Part shown: piece after piece, positions 5,374-44,754 of the stretch | Position numbering within the stretch: position 1 is the first letter of the stretch | Layout: the number at the start of each line of letters is the position of its first letter | Assembly (NCBI GenBank): GCA_024998625.1 | Contig: JACOEL010000008.1 | Span: forward strand, 62,001 to 126,000 | Reading direction: 5' to 3' | DNA: 64,000 bases | DNA from: Nitrospira sp. | GTDB taxonomy: Bacteria > Nitrospirota > Nitrospiria > Nitrospirales > Nitrospiraceae | Translations under genes and position numbers: made by a program | The notes under the pieces: generated by a model | The model's input: the letters and a program-made list of their open reading frames with translations, nothing else | Databases searched by the model: none | What the model was told of the DNA's origin: nothing

Positions 5374-8300
5374 ATGGTTGAACAGATCATCGACTTTAGC
5401 GCGAGAAATCGCTTCATTGTCTTCTTATTGGTCTTTTCCTTCTCAGCAGTCGGACTCTGGGCTATGCGTCAGACACCTATCGACGCCCTGCCGGATATTT
5501 CCGATACACAGGTGATCGTCTACACCACTTGGCCAGGACGGTCTCCCGATTTGGTCGAGGACCAAATTACCTATCCGATCGTGACGGCCCTTTTGTCCGC
5601 ACCCAACGTCACCGTTGTTCGCGGGTTTTCGGATTTCGGCTATTCCTACGTCTACATTCTTTTCAAAGATGGCACGGATATTTATTGGGCCAGATCGCGC
5701 ATTCTCGAACGGCTGAATCAACTCTCTGGACGCATGCCCGAGGGCGTCATGCCCCAATTGGGTCCCGACGCGACCGGGGTGGGTTGGGTCTTTCAATATG
5801 CGCTAGTTGATGAATCTGGCCAGCATGATCTCGCCGCACTTCGCAGTTTCCAGGATTGGTATCTGCAGTATTGGCTTCGAGCAGTAGAAGGTGTGGCCGA
5901 GGTGGCCAGTGTCGGCGGATTTGTTCGGCAGTACCAGGTCAACCTCGATCCTACGAAGGTCTCAGCCTATCGACTGTCGCTTCCTGCCATTGTCGAAACG
6001 ATTCGCCAAAGTAATAACGACGTTGGGGGCCGTGTCGTCGAGTTTTCTGGAATCGAATATGTAGTCCGTGGACGAGGCTATATCAAGAAAGTCGAAGACA
6101 TTGAGAAGATCGCTGTGGCAGTCAACGAAAACGGTACACCTATCCTCTTGCGCGACGTGGCGACAGTCCGGCTCGGTCCAGACATGCGACGAGGGCTGGC
6201 CGAGCTCAACGGCCAAGGTGAGGTCGCGGGCGGCATCGTTGTCATGCGATTCGGCGAAAATGCATTGACCGTAATCGAACGCGTCAAGGCTAAGCTGAAA
6301 GAGCTAGAACCGTCCTTGCCAAAAGGTGTGAAAGTAGTCAGCACCTACGACCGTAGCGATCTGATTCGTGAGTCCAGCGCGACCGCAAACGAAAGTTTGA
6401 TGGAGGAACTCATCGTTACGGGCATGTTGATCCTGGCGTTCTTACTTCATGTTCGTTCGGCAGTCGTCCCGATCCTGACACTTCCGTTGGCCGTTCTGAT
6501 TTCATTCATTCCTATCTATCTCATGAACATCGGCATGAACATCATGTCCTTGGGCGGGATCATTGTGGCGATTGGCGATATGGTCGATGCTGCGATCGTG
6601 ATGGTGGACAACGCCCACAAACGCCTGGAGGAATGGGAGCGGGATGGGAAGGTCGGGGATCGGCTCCAAGTTCTGATTGATTCCGCCAAAGAAGTTGGAC
6701 CGCCCATTTTTGCGTCTGTGCTCGTCATTGCGATTTCATTCATCCCGGTATTTGCCCTTGAAGCGCAAGAGGGCCGCATGTTTAAGCCGCTGGCCTGGAC
6801 GAACAACCTGGCCATCGTCATGTGTGCTGTGCTGGCTATTACATTGGTCCCAGCCTGCTTACCCACGTTCATTCGAGGCAAGATTTTTCCGGAACTGAAG
6901 CATCCTGTCACTCGCTCACTGCAACGCCTCTATGCGCCGCTCTTGCGCATGGCATTACACTATCGGAAGGCAGTCGTGATGGGCTCCATCGTATTGATGG
7001 CGAGCATTGTGCCGGTTTATCAGCAGATGGGTTCCGAGTTTATGCCGCCTTTATATGAAGGCACGATTCTCTATATGCCAACGACGTTGCCCGGCTTGTC
7101 GGTGACTGAAGCCAGCCGGCTCCTTCAAATCATGGATCAAAAGCTGCGCTCCTTTCCGGAGGTGGAACAGGTGTTTGGCAAAGCTGGACGGGCTGAAACT
7201 TCCACCGACTCCGCACCCTTCAGCATGATGGAAGTGGTGGTCGCACTCAAATCGAAAGATCAATGGCGACCAGGGCTCAGCTACGAGGGATTGGTAGATG
7301 AGATGGGCCGCACGCTTCAGATTCCTGGTGTGACGAACGCGTGGACCATGCCGATTAAAGCGCGGATCGACATGCTGACGACGGGGATTCGGACGCCAGT
7401 CGGAATCAAGGTCTTTGGCCCCGATTTGAAGCAGATCGAACAGATCGGCGAGCATTTGGAGATGGTTCTCAAGGATGTACCAGGCACTCGGAGTGTGTAT
7501 GCCGAGCGTGTGTCTGGCGGATACTTTCTGGACTTCGAGATCAACCGTGATCAGATCGCGCGCTACGGGTTCAAACTGATGGATGTTGGAAAGATCATCG
7601 AGACCGCCATCGGCGGTGAAAATATCGCCACGACCATTGAAGGCCGAGAACGTTATCCGATCAACGTCCGCTATTTTCGTGAATTAAGAGATGATCCTGA
7701 AAAGCTAAAGCGCGTGTTCGTTGATACGCCGACAGGCACGCAAGTGCCGCTCGCACAGCTCGCGACGCTTCGGTTTGTCCATGGCCCCCCTATGATTCGA
7801 GACGAAAATGGGCTGCTTGCTGGGTATGTCTTCCTCGACATGGCCGGGCGAGATGTCGGCGGGTATGTGGAGGATCTCAAAAAGGTTGTGGCCGAAAAAG
7901 TCGAATTACCTGCGGGCTATACGATCGTGTGGTCCGGCCAGTACGAATTCATGGAACGGGTGAAAGAACGGCTGAAGCTGGTCGTCCCGCTGACGCTCAT
8001 CTTCATTTTCGTCACCTTCTATTTCGCTTTTCGATCTGTCGCCCAAACCTGCATGGTGATGGTAGGGGTCCCGCTCTCTCTCGTTGGCGCGATTTGGTAT
8101 CTGTCGGTCCTTGGTTACAACATGAGCATTGCGGTGTGGGTGGGACTTATCACCGTCGTCGGGACGGCAGCGGAGACCAGTGCCGTCATGTTGGCCTATC
8201 TGGATGAGGCCTGCGCGCGACGCAAATCCGTAGGTGGTCTGACAACTCTCCAGGATGTGATCGAGACAGTGCAATCCGGTGCGGTCGAGCGGATTCGACC

Positions 8301-10014: not shown

Positions 10015-10218
10015 ATGCGTACCAATATTGTGATCGACGAAGAATTGATGCATCAGGCCATGAAGGCAGCTGGGGCTCGAACCAAACGTGAAACCGTCGA
10101 GGCTGGATTGAAAATGCTTATCCGAGTCTACCGCCAAGGAGAAGCACGCAAGCTCCGAGGCACAATACATTGGGAAGGCAATTTAGATGAAGCACGTCAA
10201 GGACGACTGCCTGTATGA
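10015..10218 (+). CDS. vapB: VapB-type antitoxin
   Basis: A 67-residue antitoxin starting MRTNIVIDEELMHQAMKAAG, the ribbon-helix-helix N-terminus of VapB proteins, followed by TKRETVEAGLKMLIRVYRQ, which completes the DNA-binding fold. The C-terminal part (LRGTIHWEGNLDEARQGR) is the usual toxin-neutralising tail with a conserved W. The frame is open from an upstream ATG at 9985, but the conserved sequence begins at 10015. The stop TGA overlaps the start of a vapC-like frame by four bases (ATGA), the normal vapBC layout. The toxin is broken, so this antitoxin appears to be orphaned. Confidence 0.82.
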   Translation: MRTNIVIDEELMHQAMKAAGARTKRETVEAGLKMLIRVYRQGEARKLRGTIHWEGNLDEARQGRLPV

Positions 10219-10346
10219 TTATCGTCGATTCCCCCGCCTGGACTAATTCATTCGACTTAGCAGCTGATTCGATGCGCAAAAGTAAACAAATTTTGCCAAC
10301 CGCTACTATTTCAATTAAGGGCACTACCAGGGAATGTGAATTGTGA
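10215..10346 (+). pseudogene. vapC: Truncated VapC toxin remnant
   Basis: The frame starts with MIIVDSPAWTNSF, matching the N-terminus of VapC PIN-domain RNases (MIIVD[TS]xxW). It includes the first catalytic aspartate. After about 14 residues the similarity is lost and a stop comes at 10344-10346, for a total of 43 codons instead of about 130. The later PIN-domain acidic residues are therefore absent. The four-base overlap with vapB supports its origin as the module's toxin. Confidence 0.65.
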
Positions 10347-10862
10347 CACCGGCAGCAGCCCACACGCGCAAATTAAGTCCCTTATTAGTCGACTAAGTAA
10401 GCGAGTTTATTTGTCGCCTTTAGTGCCCGTGCAGTGAAAGCAAACGACTTTGTACAGTCACATTGAAAGTAGAGAACATCATACTTTGCTGGATTTTTAG
10501 ACTCTGCGGTAAGCGACTTTATTTTTCTCCACACGTAACATCGTAAGCCCACCAACGTCGTCTGGGCCTGAAGCCGAGGGGGATGCAGCATCAGCTGCAT
10601 CCCCCTCGGTTGTTGCCAGGCGAACGACATCTTTAATGCTGCCTTCTGCTACAGCTGAGCGGCTACCGCTGTAGCGCCGCTCCACGGGCATGACCGGTGG
10701 TGACCTCAGGCAAAGTCCGTCGCACCTGCGAATTCACCTCTCCCTTGCTGATCACGATTCAGGCATTGCCTTTGCTCATTCCGACATGAGGACCTTCCAG
10801 GGCCGACGTTGGAGATTCGGCGCAGAGGCCATCAACCAGGCTTTATCACCCAGAGGTGCAAC
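10347..10862. other. Gene-free stretch before the gluconeogenic operon
   Basis: About 515 bases with no gene I can support. It is AT-richer between 10380 and 10540, and holds the perfect hairpin at 10574-10609, listed separately. Frames on both strands lack ribosome sites and family motifs. Confidence 0.5.
10574..10609. repeat. Perfect inverted repeat, 15-bp stem with 6-base loop
   Basis: The left arm CCGAGGGGGATGCAG pairs without mismatch with CTGCATCCCCCTCGG across the loop CATCAG. It could be a transcription terminator, since TTGTTG follows on the plus strand, but there is no long T-run on either side. It could equally be a remnant of a mobile element. It stands about 250 bases before the FBP aldolase/phosphatase gene. 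Confidence 0.75.
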
Positions 10863-38670: not shown

Positions 38671-39615
38671 ATGGGACGAAAATATGACCTCATTGATGTC
38701 GTGGCCGCCATTGGATTGGTGGCCACGCTGTTCGGCGGGTATCTATTGGTGACGGCTGCCGACGGTTTCTGGCAGGCACCGATCGCTCCCGCCGCGAACA
38801 TGACCACCGAGACGCACGATTCTTCCACCGGCATGCAGTATCTCCAGCCCGTTCTGGGCCAAGCGATTCTTCACGATGTTTTGCTCGACCGGGAAGCTGA
38901 TGCCGCCCTCTCTGCTTCCGCGATGGAGTTAAACCGGGCGGTGAGTGAGTCTCAACTGCTCTCGACGACGTTGCTGAGTCCTCTGGTGTTGGCAGAGTTG
39001 CGCGCGTTTGGGCAGGAAGCCGATCATCGTGCGCGGATGCAATATGTCATGGGCAAGTCCGTCGTCAATCAGACCCGTCGTGGGCTTGCAAGCGGAGTCC
39101 TCTCTGCCGACCAGTATGCCAGCGAATTCAACACGAACCTGATCCAGAGGGCCAAATTGATCGGGCAGCGCATGCATGATCAGTTTGAGTCGACCAGGCA
39201 GGCGACACTTGGCCGGTCGATCGTCGACGCGATTCAGGAGGAGGATCGTATGACGTCGATGGTCCAGGAGCGAATCGGTCGGGCCGTCGTTCAAGTGACA
39301 CAGGCGCAAGAAGGGTATGCGGAGGCGAAGGCGGCAGGGCAGATTCAACTTGCCAGTGCGATGAGTGCGGCCGTTCGTACGGATGCATTGGTGGATCGGT
39401 TGGCTCTGCTCGAGGAGATGCCGGCCGGACGCACGATGGTCGCATACCACTCAACTGCCACCGCCGATATTTCGCGCGGGGCCTTGGTGCTGGCCTGTCT
39501 GGGCCTGATTGCATTGTTCGTCGGCGGGTTGGCGTTCAGCAACAAGAGGGAGGCGGACAGTATTCCGCTGTGGAAGCTGGAGACTTTGCTGCAGTTGCAT
39601 CGTTCAGGCAGGTAA
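38671..39615 (+). CDS. Inner-membrane protein with large extracytoplasmic helical domain
   Basis: An unrecognised 314-residue protein. It has an N-terminal helix (DVVAAIGLVATLFGGYLLVT) and a C-terminal helix (GALVLACLGLIALFVGGLAF). The 240 residues between are mostly helical (ESQLLSTTLLSPLVLAELRA; QATLGRSIVDAIQEEDRMTS). This topology places the helical domain in the periplasm with both ends inside, a shape seen in receptor-like proteins, but no signalling domain is attached. The start follows GATAGGAGGATATC. The next gene is a 40-residue membrane peptide. Confidence 0.7.
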   Translation: MGRKYDLIDVVAAIGLVATLFGGYLLVTAADGFWQAPIAPAANMTTETHDSSTGMQYLQPVLGQAILHDVLLDREADAALSASAMELNRAVSESQLLSTTLLSPLVLAELRAFGQEADHRARMQYVMGKSVVNQTRRGLASGVLSADQYASEFNTNLIQRAKLIGQRMHDQFESTRQATLGRSIVDAIQEEDRMTSMVQERIGRAVVQVTQAQEGYAEAKAAGQIQLASAMSAAVRTDALVDRLALLEEMPAGRTMVAYHSTATADISRGALVLACLGLIALFVGGLAFSNKREADSIPLWKLETLLQLHRSGR

Positions 39616-40818: not shown

Positions 40819-41331
40819 TCAGGACTTTTTATCGGGTTTCTGATGTTGCCACTGTCCGGGTGTGGTTGAACAGGCCTGGTAGGCCTGCCCGAATCCAAGC
40901 ACGAGGTGGGCGTTCTCCATCCGAAGCTCCCACAAGGCAAAGTCGCTGAAATCGAACATCATGTGTGACTGGGGGAACTTTGCGAGATAACGCTGCTTCA
41001 CCGATTCATAGGCCATTTCAGTCGGAAGGAGGATTGAGGCCGTTCCCTGCAGGTTGATGCGTTGCCGCGCCAACGGGTTTTTGCCCGGTTTGTCCGGTTC
41101 GGCGAGAAACAGGCTGACACGGGCGTCTTCAAGGAGATGCTGGGTATGTAAGGCCAGCCGGCTGAGGTGAAGATACACACGGGACCAGTCGACTGCGAGC
41201 AGGAAGGGTACATGGGAGCCGAAGGGATGCCCGTTCCGTAGGGTCAGTAATACGCCTGTTCGTGTTTGTTCGGCCAACGTCCTCCACGCTGCTTCAAGAT
41301 CATCATTCGACTTGGTATCCGGCATCGACAT
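40819..41331 (-). CDS. Pyridoxamine-5'-phosphate oxidase-fold protein (HugZ-like)
   Basis: A 170-residue flavin-type split-barrel protein. It begins with a helix and the strand TRTGVLLTLRNGHPFGSHVP, typical of the HugZ/PNPOx-like group, followed by ARVSLFLAEPDKPGKNPLAR and RINLQGTASILLP. The DLEAAWRTLAEQTRTG opening and the later YLAKFPQSHMMFDFSDFALW segment are also usual. Members bind FMN, F420 or heme; the cofactor cannot be told here. It is a stand-alone gene. Confidence 0.8.
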   Translation of the reverse strand: MSMPDTKSNDDLEAAWRTLAEQTRTGVLLTLRNGHPFGSHVPFLLAVDWSRVYLHLSRLALHTQHLLEDARVSLFLAEPDKPGKNPLARQRINLQGTASILLPTEMAYESVKQRYLAKFPQSHMMFDFSDFALWELRMENAHLVLGFGQAYQACSTTPGQWQHQKPDKKS

Positions 41332-41506: not shown

Positions 41507-41908
41507 ATGCGACACACGCGATGGGGAATGGCAGTGCTCGGGTTCTGTGTGCTGCTGGGCGCTACGGGGTGCGGCGGTAGGCAAGCGGAGATCAAGGAAG
41601 ACCGGTTGACGGTCGGGCGCGTACAGGGCGAGGTGAAAGTCGGCATGTCGGCCGCGCAGGTGGCCGAGCTCCTCGGGTCGCCCAATATCGTCACGACCGA
41701 CGACAAGCGCCGTGAAGTGTGGATTTACGACAAGGTGTCCACGGATCGTGTCGATACGGCGAGTTCTTCCTATGCCGGACTGATCATCCTCGGAGCCAAC
41801 TCCAGCGATCGGTCCAGTTCGCAACGTCAGCGCACCCTCACCATCATCATCAAGTACGATGAAGACAAGAAGGTCCGGGACTTTGCCTACAACTCCACCC
41901 AATTCTGA
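41507..41908 (+). CDS. OmlA/SmpA-like lipoprotein
   Basis: A 133-residue lipoprotein. From the ATG at 41507 the signal is MRHTRWGMAVLGFCVLLGAT followed by the lipid-bearing Cys; the frame is open further upstream but the signal fixes the start. The mature part has the SmpA/OmlA/BamE-like motif GEVKVGMSAAQVAELLGSPN followed by KRREVWIYDK. A Ser/Gly-rich loop (DTASSSYAGLIILGANSSDR) and a final strand follow. It may belong to the barrel-assembly or envelope-stability proteins. It is the first of four consecutive lipoprotein genes on this strand. Confidence 0.75.
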   Translation: MRHTRWGMAVLGFCVLLGATGCGGRQAEIKEDRLTVGRVQGEVKVGMSAAQVAELLGSPNIVTTDDKRREVWIYDKVSTDRVDTASSSYAGLIILGANSSDRSSSQRQRTLTIIIKYDEDKKVRDFAYNSTQF

Positions 41909-41924
41909 GAGCGCCGGTCGATTG

Positions 41925-42500
41925 ATGCCGCGGCTCCCTGCAGCCGTTCTTCTTCTCATGGGGCTATGGGTCTTGCTCCAGGGCTGCGTGCAACAGACGC
42001 AGCCGGCGGAATTGTTTCAACTCACGCCGGAGAGTAGCGCCAATCGGGCCATGCAGACCCGTTTCTTCGACACGGAGAACGATCAGGAGTTATTGTCCGC
42101 CTCGGCGGCTGCGCTTCAGGATCTCGGGTTTCAAGTCGAGGAAAGTGTGCGGGAAGTCGGATTCCTGCGAGCCGCAAAAGAACGTAGTGCCCGGGAGTAC
42201 GGCCAGTATCGAAACCGGTTCTTTATCTGGCTGCTGTCCCTCGGGCATGTCGTCATCCCGATCGATCTGCACCAAAAAATTGCGGCCAGCCTCGTGACGC
42301 GGCCCCTCAATGAGGCACATTCGCGGCAGGAAGTCCGGATTATCTTCTACCGGGCGGTGTGGAAGGGGGACGGGCAGGCCGACCGTCACTACATTCCACC
42401 CGGTGAACAGAAAATGGAAATGATTCGGGACCCTGAGATCTATCAGCAATTTTTTGCGAAGCTTTCCAAGGCGGTGTTTCTAGAGCCGCATTCGATTTAA
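41925..42500 (+). CDS. Tandem paralogous lipoprotein, copy 1
   Basis: A 191-residue lipoprotein with signal ending in VLLQGC. It belongs with the next two genes to one family. All three share Q-[ST]-R-x-F-[DE] near residue 45 (MQTRFFDTENDQELL), a QDLGF motif (AALQDLGFQVEESV), an [LV]G[FLI] strand, and an ending with YQxFF (PEIYQQFFAKLSKAVFLEP). This copy carries a longer insertion (FIWLLSLGHVVIPIDLHQ). I do not recognise the family. The start at 41925 gives the shortest frame with a full signal; no clear ribosome site is seen. Confidence 0.75.
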   Translation: MPRLPAAVLLLMGLWVLLQGCVQQTQPAELFQLTPESSANRAMQTRFFDTENDQELLSASAAALQDLGFQVEESVREVGFLRAAKERSAREYGQYRNRFFIWLLSLGHVVIPIDLHQKIAASLVTRPLNEAHSRQEVRIIFYRAVWKGDGQADRHYIPPGEQKMEMIRDPEIYQQFFAKLSKAVFLEPHSI

Positions 42501-42512
42501 CTACGAGGACTC

Positions 42513-42950
42513 ATGAACTGGATACAGGTCGTCGGCGCCGTTGTGGTCGTGATGGGAAGCGTCATGTTGCACGGTTGCGTTGCGCCGGAGCCGCGACAAG
42601 AACTCTTTGCGCCGACCGATGCGCAGATGAAGATTCGCAGCGCGCAGACCCGCACGTTCGAGGTCAAGGAGCAGACCGTCGCCATGCGCGGCGTCATCGC
42701 GGCTCTGCAAGACCTGGGATTTATCATCGAACGTGCGAACGAACCGCTCGGGCTGGTGACGGCGGCCCGCTTTGCAGAACCGAACTATTACGATGTGCTC
42801 GGTGTGACCGTGACCGTGCGCCCGCAACAGGACGGCAAGACGATGATCCGTGCCAATGCAATTTACAATAGCAAGCCGATCGAAGATCCCAAGGTGTATC
42901 AGAACTTCTTCGCAGCGGTGGAACGTTCGTTATTTTTGGTAAAGGACTAA
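42513..42950 (+). CDS. Tandem paralogous lipoprotein, copy 2
   Basis: A 145-residue lipoprotein, the shortest copy. The signal (IQVVGAVVVVMGSVMLHGC) precedes the shared core: SAQTRTFEVKEQTVAMRGVI, AALQDLGFIIERANEPLG, then GVTVTVRPQQDGKTMIRANA and the ending PKVYQNFFAAVERSLFL. It follows copy 1 by 12 bases and precedes copy 3 by three bases. The core likely forms one alpha/beta domain in the periplasm. Confidence 0.77.
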   Translation: MNWIQVVGAVVVVMGSVMLHGCVAPEPRQELFAPTDAQMKIRSAQTRTFEVKEQTVAMRGVIAALQDLGFIIERANEPLGLVTAARFAEPNYYDVLGVTVTVRPQQDGKTMIRANAIYNSKPIEDPKVYQNFFAAVERSLFLVKD

Positions 42951-42953
42951 CCG

Positions 42954-43547
42954 GTGTCTCGCCCCGCCATCTATGGATGCCGCCGGTCGAATAACCGTAT
43001 GGTCGTGATTGGCTTCGTTCTGCTGGCCTCCTGGACCGCCGGCTGTTCGCCCTATGAATGGCGACATGAGAACCAATGGGAGTCGCGCGACCAGATCTGG
43101 CTCGCCGAGGCCAGCCAGGTCAAGGTGCGGGCGGCTCAAAGCCGTGTCTTCGATACCGCTGATCGTCTCAAGACGATTCAGGCGGTTGTCGCCACTTGTC
43201 AGGACTTAGGTTTTGCGGTGGAAGTATTGGATGAAACGCTAGGCATTGTCTCTGGCAAGAAATTTGATGATTACGAATCCACACAATGGGGTGATCCTTC
43301 CTATCACCTGTATCGGGACGACGGACTCCTGATCCTCACCCGGCAGTTCCGGAGCTGGGGGCCGTTTTATCACCGTAGCAATCTTGTCCGCCTCACGGTC
43401 ACCGTCCGGCCACGTGGAAACAGGCAGTTGATCGTGCGTGCCAGTGCTCAGTATTACCTCAAGGCCATCGAGTCCCCGGAGCCGTATCAGCAATTCTTTC
43501 GCGCGCTCGAGCAGGCGCTCTTCATTCAGGCGAACGCACTGCCATAG
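42954..43547 (+). CDS. Tandem paralogous lipoprotein, copy 3
   Basis: A 197-residue lipoprotein. The frame begins with GTG at 42954; an ATG at 42999 would also leave a usable signal (VIGFVLLASWTAGC). The shared core is QSRVFDTADRLKTIQAVVAT, CQDLGFAVEVLDETLGIVSG, LTVTVRPRGNRQLIVRASAQ and SPEPYQQFFRALEQALFI. Like copy 1 it has an insertion (YHLYRDDGLLILTRQFRSWG). Three such genes in a row suggest a multi-subunit envelope complex or recent duplication. Function unknown. Confidence 0.76.
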   Translation: MSRPAIYGCRRSNNRMVVIGFVLLASWTAGCSPYEWRHENQWESRDQIWLAEASQVKVRAAQSRVFDTADRLKTIQAVVATCQDLGFAVEVLDETLGIVSGKKFDDYESTQWGDPSYHLYRDDGLLILTRQFRSWGPFYHRSNLVRLTVTVRPRGNRQLIVRASAQYYLKAIESPEPYQQFFRALEQALFIQANALP

Positions 43548-43613: not shown

Positions 43614-44324
43614 TCACCGGCGTGACCCGCCGCCGGCATCCGCGTGAGTGCTGCTCAGGGGGCCCTGCTGTAAGACGGGATCGAGATTGAACGCCACACT
43701 GATTCGGGGTGCCGTTCCACGATACGTATTCACGGCATGGAACAACCAGCCAGGGAACAGCAGGCATTGTCCGGCCGCAGGGGAGTAGGAAATGCTGGTT
43801 CCGGCATCATGCAATTCGGTCATGCTGTACTGGAGATAGGGCGCCAGCATACGCGGCAGGCAGCCTCGCGGGTCGTAAATCTGCAGTTCGCCTCCCTTTT
43901 CCAGAGTCGGGCAGACCTCGCCCACATCGACATAATAGACGCCTGCCCAAAAACTTCCGGGGTGGGAGTGGGCTGCATTGGCTCCGCCGCTTCGTTGAAC
44001 GTTGGCCCACACCTCGACGACTTCCCAATCGGGTCGACGGGCAGCATGGCGGCATCGGTCCGAGAGGGTTGTGACTTGTTTGGCTACTTCGATGACGGGC
44101 GCAAACAACTCGCGTAATGGGCTTCCTGCCCAATCCATCATCGACAGGTCGTGAGGCGAGGACCACCCGATCACTTCGGTGTCGCGGTGGCTCGGGACGG
44201 AAGCCTCGCGCGCCAGAATCAATTGAGAGAGCTCGGCGTTGATGCGTTCGTGATGCGCAGGCGTGAACACCAGCAGAGGCGTGGAGAAAAGGGGCGTAAT
44301 TTGAATCTCGATCTCGGTCGGCAT
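43614..44324 (-). CDS. 2OG-Fe(II) oxygenase-like protein (TIGR02466 type)
   Basis: A 236-residue double-stranded beta-helix protein. The opening IQITPLFSTPLLVFTPAHHE, the N-terminal WSSPHDLSMMDWAGSPLREL and the iron site NAAHSHPGSFWAGVYYVD, with an HxD-like or H-containing first ligand region, fit the family of putative 2-oxoglutarate oxygenases. The distal His and the Arg lie in LFPGWLFHAVNTYRGTAPRI. Substrates are unproven; relatives are often found near amino-acid or envelope genes. GGAG eight bases upstream supports the start. The last 20 residues are low-complexity. Confidence 0.8.
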   Translation of the reverse strand: MPTEIEIQITPLFSTPLLVFTPAHHERINAELSQLILAREASVPSHRDTEVIGWSSPHDLSMMDWAGSPLRELFAPVIEVAKQVTTLSDRCRHAARRPDWEVVEVWANVQRSGGANAAHSHPGSFWAGVYYVDVGEVCPTLEKGGELQIYDPRGCLPRMLAPYLQYSMTELHDAGTSISYSPAAGQCLLFPGWLFHAVNTYRGTAPRISVAFNLDPVLQQGPLSSTHADAGGGSRR

Positions 44325-44550: not shown

Positions 44551-44754
44551 ATGTCTGTCGCACGTGTGACGGAAATCATTGCCGCATCCCCGAAGAGTTT
44601 TGATGATGCCATTCAGAGTGGAATTGCTCGCGCCAACAAAACGTTACAGAATGTGAAAAGCGCCTGGATCGAGGATCAGAAGGTGGATATCGAAGATGGA
44701 AAAATCACGCAGTATCGGGTGGCCTTGAAAGTCACCTTTGTCCTGAAGGATTAG
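44551..44754 (+). CDS. Dodecin flavin-binding protein
   Basis: A 67-residue protein that assembles into a hollow dodecamer and stores or buffers flavins. The whole chain matches the family: RVTEIIAASPKSFDDAIQSG, then ARANKTLQNVKSAWIEDQKV, whose Trp stacks on the isoalloxazine ring, and ITQYRVALKVTFVLKD. GGGAGG precedes the ATG at good distance. The small gene at 44763 follows after eight bases, so they form one unit. Confidence 0.93.
   Translation: MSVARVTEIIAASPKSFDDAIQSGIARANKTLQNVKSAWIEDQKVDIEDGKITQYRVALKVTFVLKD

Follow-up and report, generated by a model that had tools for sequence, protein, structure and literature searches.

The lipoproteins of the barrel-assembly machine of the outer membrane differ between lineages. 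BamC is described in a review as consisting of a lasso and two loosely held helix-grip domains, with a function that is little understood (PMC13067283). The first of these domains comprises residues 101 to 212, and the protein is stated to occur only in beta- and gammaproteobacteria, with other lineages proposed to have evolved lipoproteins of their own (PMC3359395). BamF of the alphaproteobacteria and BamG to BamK of the Bacteroidota are such lineage-specific subunits, which replace or add to the classical set (PMC3359395, PMC12578637); BamF is named as the only noncanonical, periplasm-facing lipoprotein of the machine identified before the latter paper's own work (PMC12578637). A cassette of four lipoprotein genes (A to D, positions 41,507 to 43,547) in a stretch of 64,000 nucleotides from a Nitrospira sp. 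contig, here called the window, brings together a BamE domain and proteins with a predicted BamC-like fold beyond the lineages to which BamC is ascribed. By analogy with these two domains, A to D are tentatively read as a complex of lipoproteins at the outer membrane, accessory in nature and spread by horizontal transfer, whose makeup would resemble the BamC/BamE part of the barrel-assembly machine and which would act on the side of outer membrane assembly. The descriptions of BamF and BamG to BamK set those subunits apart from A to D by their architecture or location (PMC3359395, PMC12578637).

Gene Organization and Paralogy

The original prediction, made from the window's sequence alone, had described four consecutive lipoprotein genes, three of them diverged tandem paralogues, behind an OmlA/SmpA-like gene, and this description holds. 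All four genes lie on the plus strand. Gene A (41,507 to 41,908) encodes a predicted lipoprotein of 133 amino acids with a BamE (SmpA/OmlA) domain, as supported by Pfam, hhalign, and PDB matches. Gene B (41,925 to 42,500) encodes a predicted lipoprotein of 191 amino acids with one helix-grip domain in its model and a hydrophobic insert. The predicted lipoprotein of gene C (42,513 to 42,950; 145 amino acids) contains the minimal core of the family, and its fold is deduced from those of its paralogues B and D. Gene D (42,954 to 43,547) encodes a predicted lipoprotein that comprises the modeled core and a low-confidence insert, with 197 amino acids from a GTG start or 182 amino acids from an internal ATG at 42,999. 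We think that the GTG start is the likelier one because the charged n-region of the signal peptide comes from that start. The intergenic gaps are then 16, 12, and 3 bases (A-B, B-C, and C-D), within the predicted range of 3 to 16 bases; a start at the internal ATG leads to a C-D gap of 48 bases.

Local alignment of the sequences beyond residue 22, with 1,000 shuffles per pair, identifies B, C, and D as true paralogues at the sequence level. The shuffle z values are 15.5 for B-C, 13.3 for B-D, and 40.2 for C-D, and none of the 1,000 shuffles reached the score of the respective pair. The profiles of the B and D families match each other with an hhalign probability of 99.1, and R47, Q66, D67, L68, G80, Y129, F133, and F141 are invariant over 11 family members. 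The predicted motifs Q-[ST]-R-x-F-[DE], QDLGF, and YQxFF are present in the family, and the shuffle tests reject a chance origin of the shared motifs; B, C, and D thus do not fall into three unrelated families, the outcome that had been named as fatal to the prediction. Gene A is no fourth paralogue, as its alignments with B, C, or D stay at chance level (z of −1.4 to −0.6) and the hhalign alignment of A with D covers the signal peptides only. In the genome of the window, the sole family match outside B, C, and D is weak and contains internal stop codons (E value of 0.04).

No Pfam or NCBIfam family matches B, C, or D above its cutoff, and none was matched with confidence when 59 B-type and 57 D-type members were scanned singly. 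Weak Pfam matches (Mor in 21 of the 59 B members, with a best E value of 0.0066, as well as DUF4136, DUF1499, and others) were attributed to chance. The same applies to the sequence matches in the PDB, which comprise two chains for C (E values of 1.3 to 1.4) and only RNase H-type chains for the profiles of B and D (E values of 0.4 to 1.2).

By inspection, a signal peptide and a lipobox cysteine are present in all four products, with the lipobox reading ATGC in A, LQGC in B, LHGC in C, and TAGC in D. Sorting of lipoproteins follows the Asp-at-+2 rule of Escherichia coli, which is assumed to be valid here. An aspartate follows the lipobox cysteine in none of the parsed rows (62 A, 77 B, 70 C, and 76 D); 29 hits, many with a visible G-C site and some of them fragments, were left out of this count because the strict pattern detected no lipobox where one was expected. 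A to D are thus predicted to be outer membrane lipoproteins by their signal peptide, their lipobox cysteine, and a +2 position free of aspartate.

The three paralogues differ in their inserts. The hydrophobic insert of B (42,207 to 42,257, plus strand) is itself conserved, is flanked by two conserved motifs, KERSAREYGQ and P-[VI]-D-L-H, and is seen in the hydropathy profile as well as in the model, which places a helix at residues 92 to 104. The highest hydropathy over 15 residues of the mature part has a median of 1.98 for B (n = 77), compared to 1.26 for A (n = 62), 1.42 for C (n = 70), and 1.12 for D (n = 76). This insert is a possible membrane- or partner-contacting element. The insert of D (43,266 to 43,382, plus strand) contains conserved aromatic residues and an R-S-W-G-P-F motif in an alignment of 57 rows, in which Y117, Y120, G136, F138, and R141 are invariant; most of residues 115 to 140 have a pLDDT under 50 in the D model.

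Relation of Gene A to BamE

The OmlA/SmpA-like assignment of gene A was right. Residues 42 to 124 match the Pfam family PF04355 (BamE) with 26.9 bits against a cutoff of 23.2, and the proteins P0002 (26.3 bits) and P0005 (24.3 bits) likewise exceed this cutoff. The profile of the A family matches E. coli BamE with an hhalign probability of 96.2 over 65 columns, including part of the signal peptide. The 15 best PDB matches of A are BamE/SmpA chains, with a best E value of 1.7e−4 for precursor chains. By these sequence comparisons, A is a BamE-domain protein and a relative of BamE.

Gene A shares with BamE the domain and the predicted form of a small lipoprotein but differs from it in several ways. 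It adjoins B-, C-, or D-type genes in nearly every locus seen, it has a very conserved L-G-S-P-N-I-V core and a C-terminal phenylalanine, and it is missing from many relatives. The NCBIfam equivalog model for BamE (PRK11548) does not list A at an E value of 1, and P0002 (22.2 bits) and P0005 (17.2 bits) miss its cutoff of 93 bits. Over 27 sequences, A shows 18 invariant columns. Its last residue, encoded at 41,903 to 41,905 (plus strand), is phenylalanine in all 76 loci having A; of 18 additional A sequences, 16 likewise end in phenylalanine and two in methionine. This C-terminal phenylalanine looks like a docking end. A further match of A is to phrog_3135, a family of phage proteins without an assigned function, with E values of 3.3e−7 for the A protein of the window and 6.7e−11 for that of Azospirillum; judging from this similarity, some phages seem to carry BamE-like lipoproteins.

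Fold of B and D

AlphaFold2 models were made for B and D (mean pLDDT of 74.6 and 78.2) and compared with the PDB by Foldseek and VIA. Both models show the same order of elements: a strand, a helix, two strands, the insert, and then further strands and a closing helix. For each model, the eight highest-ranking Foldseek matches are BamC entries or chain C or D of BAM or BamCD complexes. The top match of D is a BamC chain with an E value of 3.0e−5, and 12 matches of D reach 0.001; across both models, the TM-scores on the query are 0.29 to 0.37. In VIA, the N-terminal domain of BamC matches B with a Z score of 9.5 (root mean square deviation [RMSD] of 4.2 over 103 residues) and D with a Z score of 10.3 (RMSD of 4.1 over 101 residues). 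The top VIA match is Flpp3 from Francisella, with Z scores of 10.6 (B) and 11.6 (D) and RMSD values of 2.2 and 2.7 over 93 residues. The plant protein At1g24000 has Z scores of 9.8 (B) and 10.7 (D), and KA1-type domains reach up to 9.5. From these models, the helix-grip fold class of B and D appears fairly sure.

B and D resemble BamC as predicted lipoproteins with a helix-grip domain. In contrast to the two domains of BamC, each model contains one such domain, and the long N-terminal lasso with which BamC wraps around BamD is missing in B to D. The distance from the lipid cysteine to the Q-[ST]-R strand has medians of 23 residues in 73 B rows, 23 residues in 69 C rows, and 31 residues in 75 D rows. 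Up to three paralogues of the B-D family occur per genome, and none of the 57 D and 59 B members matches the Pfam family of BamC (PF06804) at an E value of 1. The models support a common fold class but do not establish descent from BamC. B to D are not BamC; by analogy, they may work like BamC. Flpp3 shares with B and D the single-domain lipoprotein architecture, with a sequence identity of 6 to 9 percent, and is called unique to Francisella in the description of its structure (PMC12723454).

Separate single-domain lipoproteins from other Nitrospirota (loci L189 to L199) show a weak match to the BamC Pfam family, with a best E value of 9.1e−6, and such proteins exceed the cutoff of this family in 2 of 41 genomes. 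They show no profile relation to B or D, and the BamC-like proteins in alignment A4 (L189, L192 to L194, L196, and L197) were for this reason rejected as relatives.

Conservation, Distribution, and History of the Cassette

A scan of the genome collection with one pattern gave 284 relatives, and the counts of gene order given here derive from the best 80 of these. The order A-B-C-D on one strand is found in 74 of the 80 loci; this count includes L104 despite its overlapping stop-to-stop frames, as well as L050 and L099 with their additional D pieces. Of the six exceptions (L043, L047, L075, L084, L098, and L105), L047 and L075 have a contig end at or inside B. In L098, from Nitrospira moscoviensis (∼5,400 to 6,924), A is missing, B and C are shortened and without signal peptides, and D is intact. 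Besides a frame-broken copy of D, L050 has a second intact copy ∼3 kb away (6,499 to 7,040 and 10,203 to 10,763); D fragments are present in L099 (10,296 to 10,685) and in L211 to L213. So D appears, on sequence grounds, to be both duplicated and lost.

The co-conservation with the OmlA-like gene, proposed as a check of the original prediction, was confirmed in a survey of 61 relatives with limits of an E value of ≤1e−3 for the family and ≤1e−5 for gene A. The family was found in 33 and gene A in 32 of these genomes. Presence and absence of the two agree in 60 of 61 genomes: 32 contain the two together, and 28 have no match to either at these limits (Fisher P = 1.5e−16, a value that ignores the kinship of the genomes); the sole mismatch is G002, where the contig ends inside B.

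The titles of the records of the best 80 relatives name Nitrospira, Nitrospinota, Planctomycetota, Myxococcota, and other metagenome-assembled genomes, whose names can be wrong. In 16 loci (L084, L090, L097, L100, L101, L103, and L105 to L114), the best segments are 53 to 73 percent identical to C of the window, and those of their rows that were placed in the tree fall outside the near-identical Nitrospira rows. The family was found in 48 of 245 genomes of the phylum of the window, in 6 of 282 in the phylum of G285, in 9 of 294 in that of G279, and in 10 of 77 in that of G283, one of the latter being a short match with stop codons. G279 and G283 themselves contain loci titled Planctomycetota and Nitrospinota.

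Reduced forms of the cassette consist of A and one or two family genes. A with one family gene occurs in other Nitrospirota (L202 to L206, L209, and L210, with L206 in broken frames) and in L227 and L228; in L207, the family gene is cut by the contig end. A with two family genes is found on plasmids of Azospirillum brasilense and Acinetobacter baumannii (L217 and L218). The phylum of G279 contributes five more such loci (L222 to L226) and that of G283 two (L238 and L239). The A. baumannii plasmid, of 7,989 bases, carries the A-B-C/D unit together with a SulP-type transporter and a RelE/ParE-type gene.

In an unrooted tree of 70 rows, B forms one group (support of 100/99) and D another (100/98), each across several phyla, and the Proteobacteria-type C/D genes join D in a joint group (100/99). 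C lies between B and D in this tree and needs two changes. The tree program warned of long branches (the rows of G332 and some single-copy rows joining B), and the placement of these rows is unsure. The duplications giving B, C, and D are old, as far as this sequence tree indicates, and the recent duplication offered earlier as one explanation is wrong because the B and D groups each span several phyla. A fortuitous run of lipoprotein genes from such a duplication, without a joint function, is refuted by the present data: the three tandem paralogues and the extra or broken D copies in L050, L099, and L211 to L213 would suit it, but the order and co-occurrence of the genes are kept as well. The best reading of the distribution is that of an accessory module that spreads horizontally. 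Carriage by phages was tested with protein P0004, which has no match in 50,697 phage records.

Proposed Function and Alternative Explanations

The dedicated envelope complex of related subunits that had been proposed from the window is borne out as far as a dedicated, co-inherited unit is concerned, by its co-occurrence with A, the kept order, and its presence in several phyla and on plasmids. A joint function of A to D is highly probable, and their assembly into a physical complex is probable. A single complex at the inner side of the outer membrane is the simplest reading because the BamE domain is near-constantly paired with BamC-fold lipoproteins and nothing else nearby is constant. In the mechanism suggested here, the four genes would form one self-contained module for a hetero-oligomeric complex, held by its lipids at the periplasmic side of the outer membrane. 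The BamE-type domain would come from A, and B, C, and D would be three specialized copies, each with a single BamC-like helix-grip domain on a short linker of 23 to 31 residues to the membrane. The hydrophobic insert of B and the aromatic insert of D would let the copies take different contacts or places. The most likely job of such a complex would be an accessory one: to bind and steady, under certain conditions, either the barrel-assembly machine itself or a specific client (a barrel protein or a lipoprotein), in the way in which BamC and BamE are thought to act on BamA-BamD. Lipidation, location at the outer membrane, and contact with the machine are all presumed in this mechanism, and the link to barrel assembly, drawn by analogy of the two domains, is itself rated somewhat short of even likelihood.

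The complex at the outer membrane is favored by the reduced forms, which keep A beside a family gene, by plasmid carriage, by an integrase near units of A and one family gene, and by the degraded cassette of N. moscoviensis. The divergence of the four genes is also correlated: over 51 loci, the Spearman coefficients between the pairwise distances of the genes are 0.79 to 0.88, compared to a maximum of 0.34 after shuffling, which shows a shared history only and not contact. Several observations weigh against it. The match of A to BamE is modest, with mature BamE chains in the PDB reaching only E values of 0.03 to 0.06, and BamE-like domains occur in other roles too. The top Foldseek match of B is likewise a BamC chain, but with a weak best E value of 1.6e−3 and no match at 0.001. 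In VIA, Bet v 1-type plant proteins, KA1 domains, and Flpp3 roughly equal or beat BamC. Profile comparison with E. coli BamC by hhalign reaches probabilities of only 2.4 and 0.35, which amounts to no significant relation and leaves a likeness of fold only. No A was found near the cassette of L105, L043 lacks D with ∼540 bases of contig left, and A points in the opposite direction in L084. Family genes without a visible A occur as a tandem pair in L208 and as a weak match in L229, and the family protein of L205, a locus of A and one family gene, shows no clear lipobox. The cassette was not found in the single-contig genomes G001 and G007 of the same genus, which keep a gene of the YfiO/BamD family.

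Among the alternatives, the one that survives best holds that the helix-grip domains bind a lipid or another hydrophobic ligand, so that A to D move or sense a phospholipid, a hopanoid-like lipid, or another hydrophobic molecule in the periplasm, with no tie to barrel assembly. The fold class includes a cytokinin-binding protein and Bet v 1 (VIA Z scores of 8 to 10), and for Flpp3, an internal cavity is described in the nuclear magnetic resonance structure, with none in the X-ray free-electron laser structure (PMC12723454). A sporadic distribution would also suit a niche-specific trait. However, no residues can be singled out as catalytic or ligand binding, no lipid transport gene recurs as a neighbor among the loci compared (a gene of the AMP-binding/acetyl-CoA-synthetase type lies near three loci at differing places), and the constant partner is a BamE domain. 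Ligand binding is considered an unlikely explanation.

A protective envelope module, carried as an accessory trait for phage exclusion or for immunity to periplasmic toxins, is less probable still. It would be in line with the patchy distribution, the plasmid carriage, the integrase near three loci, and the match of A to phrog_3135, and there is a published account of immunity proteins that resemble BamE and counter lipid-targeting toxins (PMC12419801). On the other hand, PADLOC gave only one match, with an E value of 0.0057 for P0004, and the PHROG matches are none better than 0.025 for B, C, and D of the window and none better than 6.1e−4 for P0004, which is also the protein unmatched in phage records. 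No toxin gene recurs beside the cassette in the loci compared, and immunity proteins are called rapidly evolving in the same source (PMC12419801), as opposed to the invariant columns of A.

That the genes are the standard orthologues of the machine, with A as the BamE of the organism and B to D as its BamC, is improbable to a greater degree. A is the sole match over the Pfam BamE cutoff in its own genome, and B and D belong to the fold class of BamC. This assignment conflicts with the results for the BamE equivalog model and the BamC Pfam family described above and with the architecture of one domain and 23 to 31 residues, against two domains and a long lasso in BamC. A gene of the YfiO/BamD family was found in 40 of 41 relatives searched, the exception being G010. 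The module is dispensable, and hence not a core part of the barrel-assembly machine, because it was not found in genomes, including close relatives, that retain this gene.

With regard to the preferred reading of an outer membrane accessory complex, a more specific form, to which only a low likelihood is given, is that of an undescribed mobile accessory in which a BamE-type lipoprotein and one to three BamC-fold lipoproteins dock on the machine or form a parallel complex, extending it in several phyla to a new client or a new range of stresses. The module is undescribed in the literature searched, which comprised titles, beginnings of abstracts, and passages, with subscription papers and preprints mostly outside the search. 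The countable forms of A with one, two, or three family genes allow comparison, and the module gives families of genes that Pfam and NCBIfam do not list a testable function in Nitrospira and in the manipulable Azospirillum.

Neighboring Genes

In a comparison of 24 chosen diverse loci, in which sets shared by at least three loci were considered, genes other than those of the cassette are each limited to at most 5 loci. Every set shared by 4 or 5 loci comes from Nitrospinota-type loci (L108 to L110, L112, and L113), as do several sets of 3. Two sets of 3 are limited to Nitrospira, namely, a flavoprotein (L035, L070, and L104) and an open reading frame (ORF) (L057, L062, and L089). Two further sets of 3 cross lineages: the AMP-binding/acetyl-CoA-synthetase-type gene (L070, L104, and L111, of which L070 and L111 were scanned) and an ORF that by eye resembles a sensor or response regulator (L035, L057, and L103). 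Both look like common kinds of genes at differing places. In a second comparison of 20 loci with A and one, two, or three family genes, the sole neighbor recurring in 3 loci is a phage-type integrase (Pfam Phage_integrase; E values of 1e−34 to 7e−42), located near the unit of A and one family gene in L202 (5,657 to 6,754), L203 (3,823 to 4,575), and L206 (1,186 to 2,307), with L202 and L203 belonging to the same genus. A promoter and terminator scan gave 2 and 4 sites, compared to shuffle means of 0.9 and 1.9, and was not used.

In the window, a 314-amino-acid protein with hydrophobic stretches near both ends, as judged by eye, and no Pfam family above the cutoff is encoded at 38,671 to 39,615 on the plus strand. 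Divergent from A, a pyridoxamine-phosphate-oxidase-like flavoprotein gene (Pfam PNPOx_N, E value of 2.3e−10) lies at 40,822 to 41,331 on the minus strand, and its relatives are the flavoprotein genes upstream of the cassette in L035, L070, and L104. Convergent with D is a gene for a 2OG-Fe(II) oxygenase (43,617 to 44,324, minus strand), followed by a dodecin gene at 44,551 to 44,754 on the plus strand.

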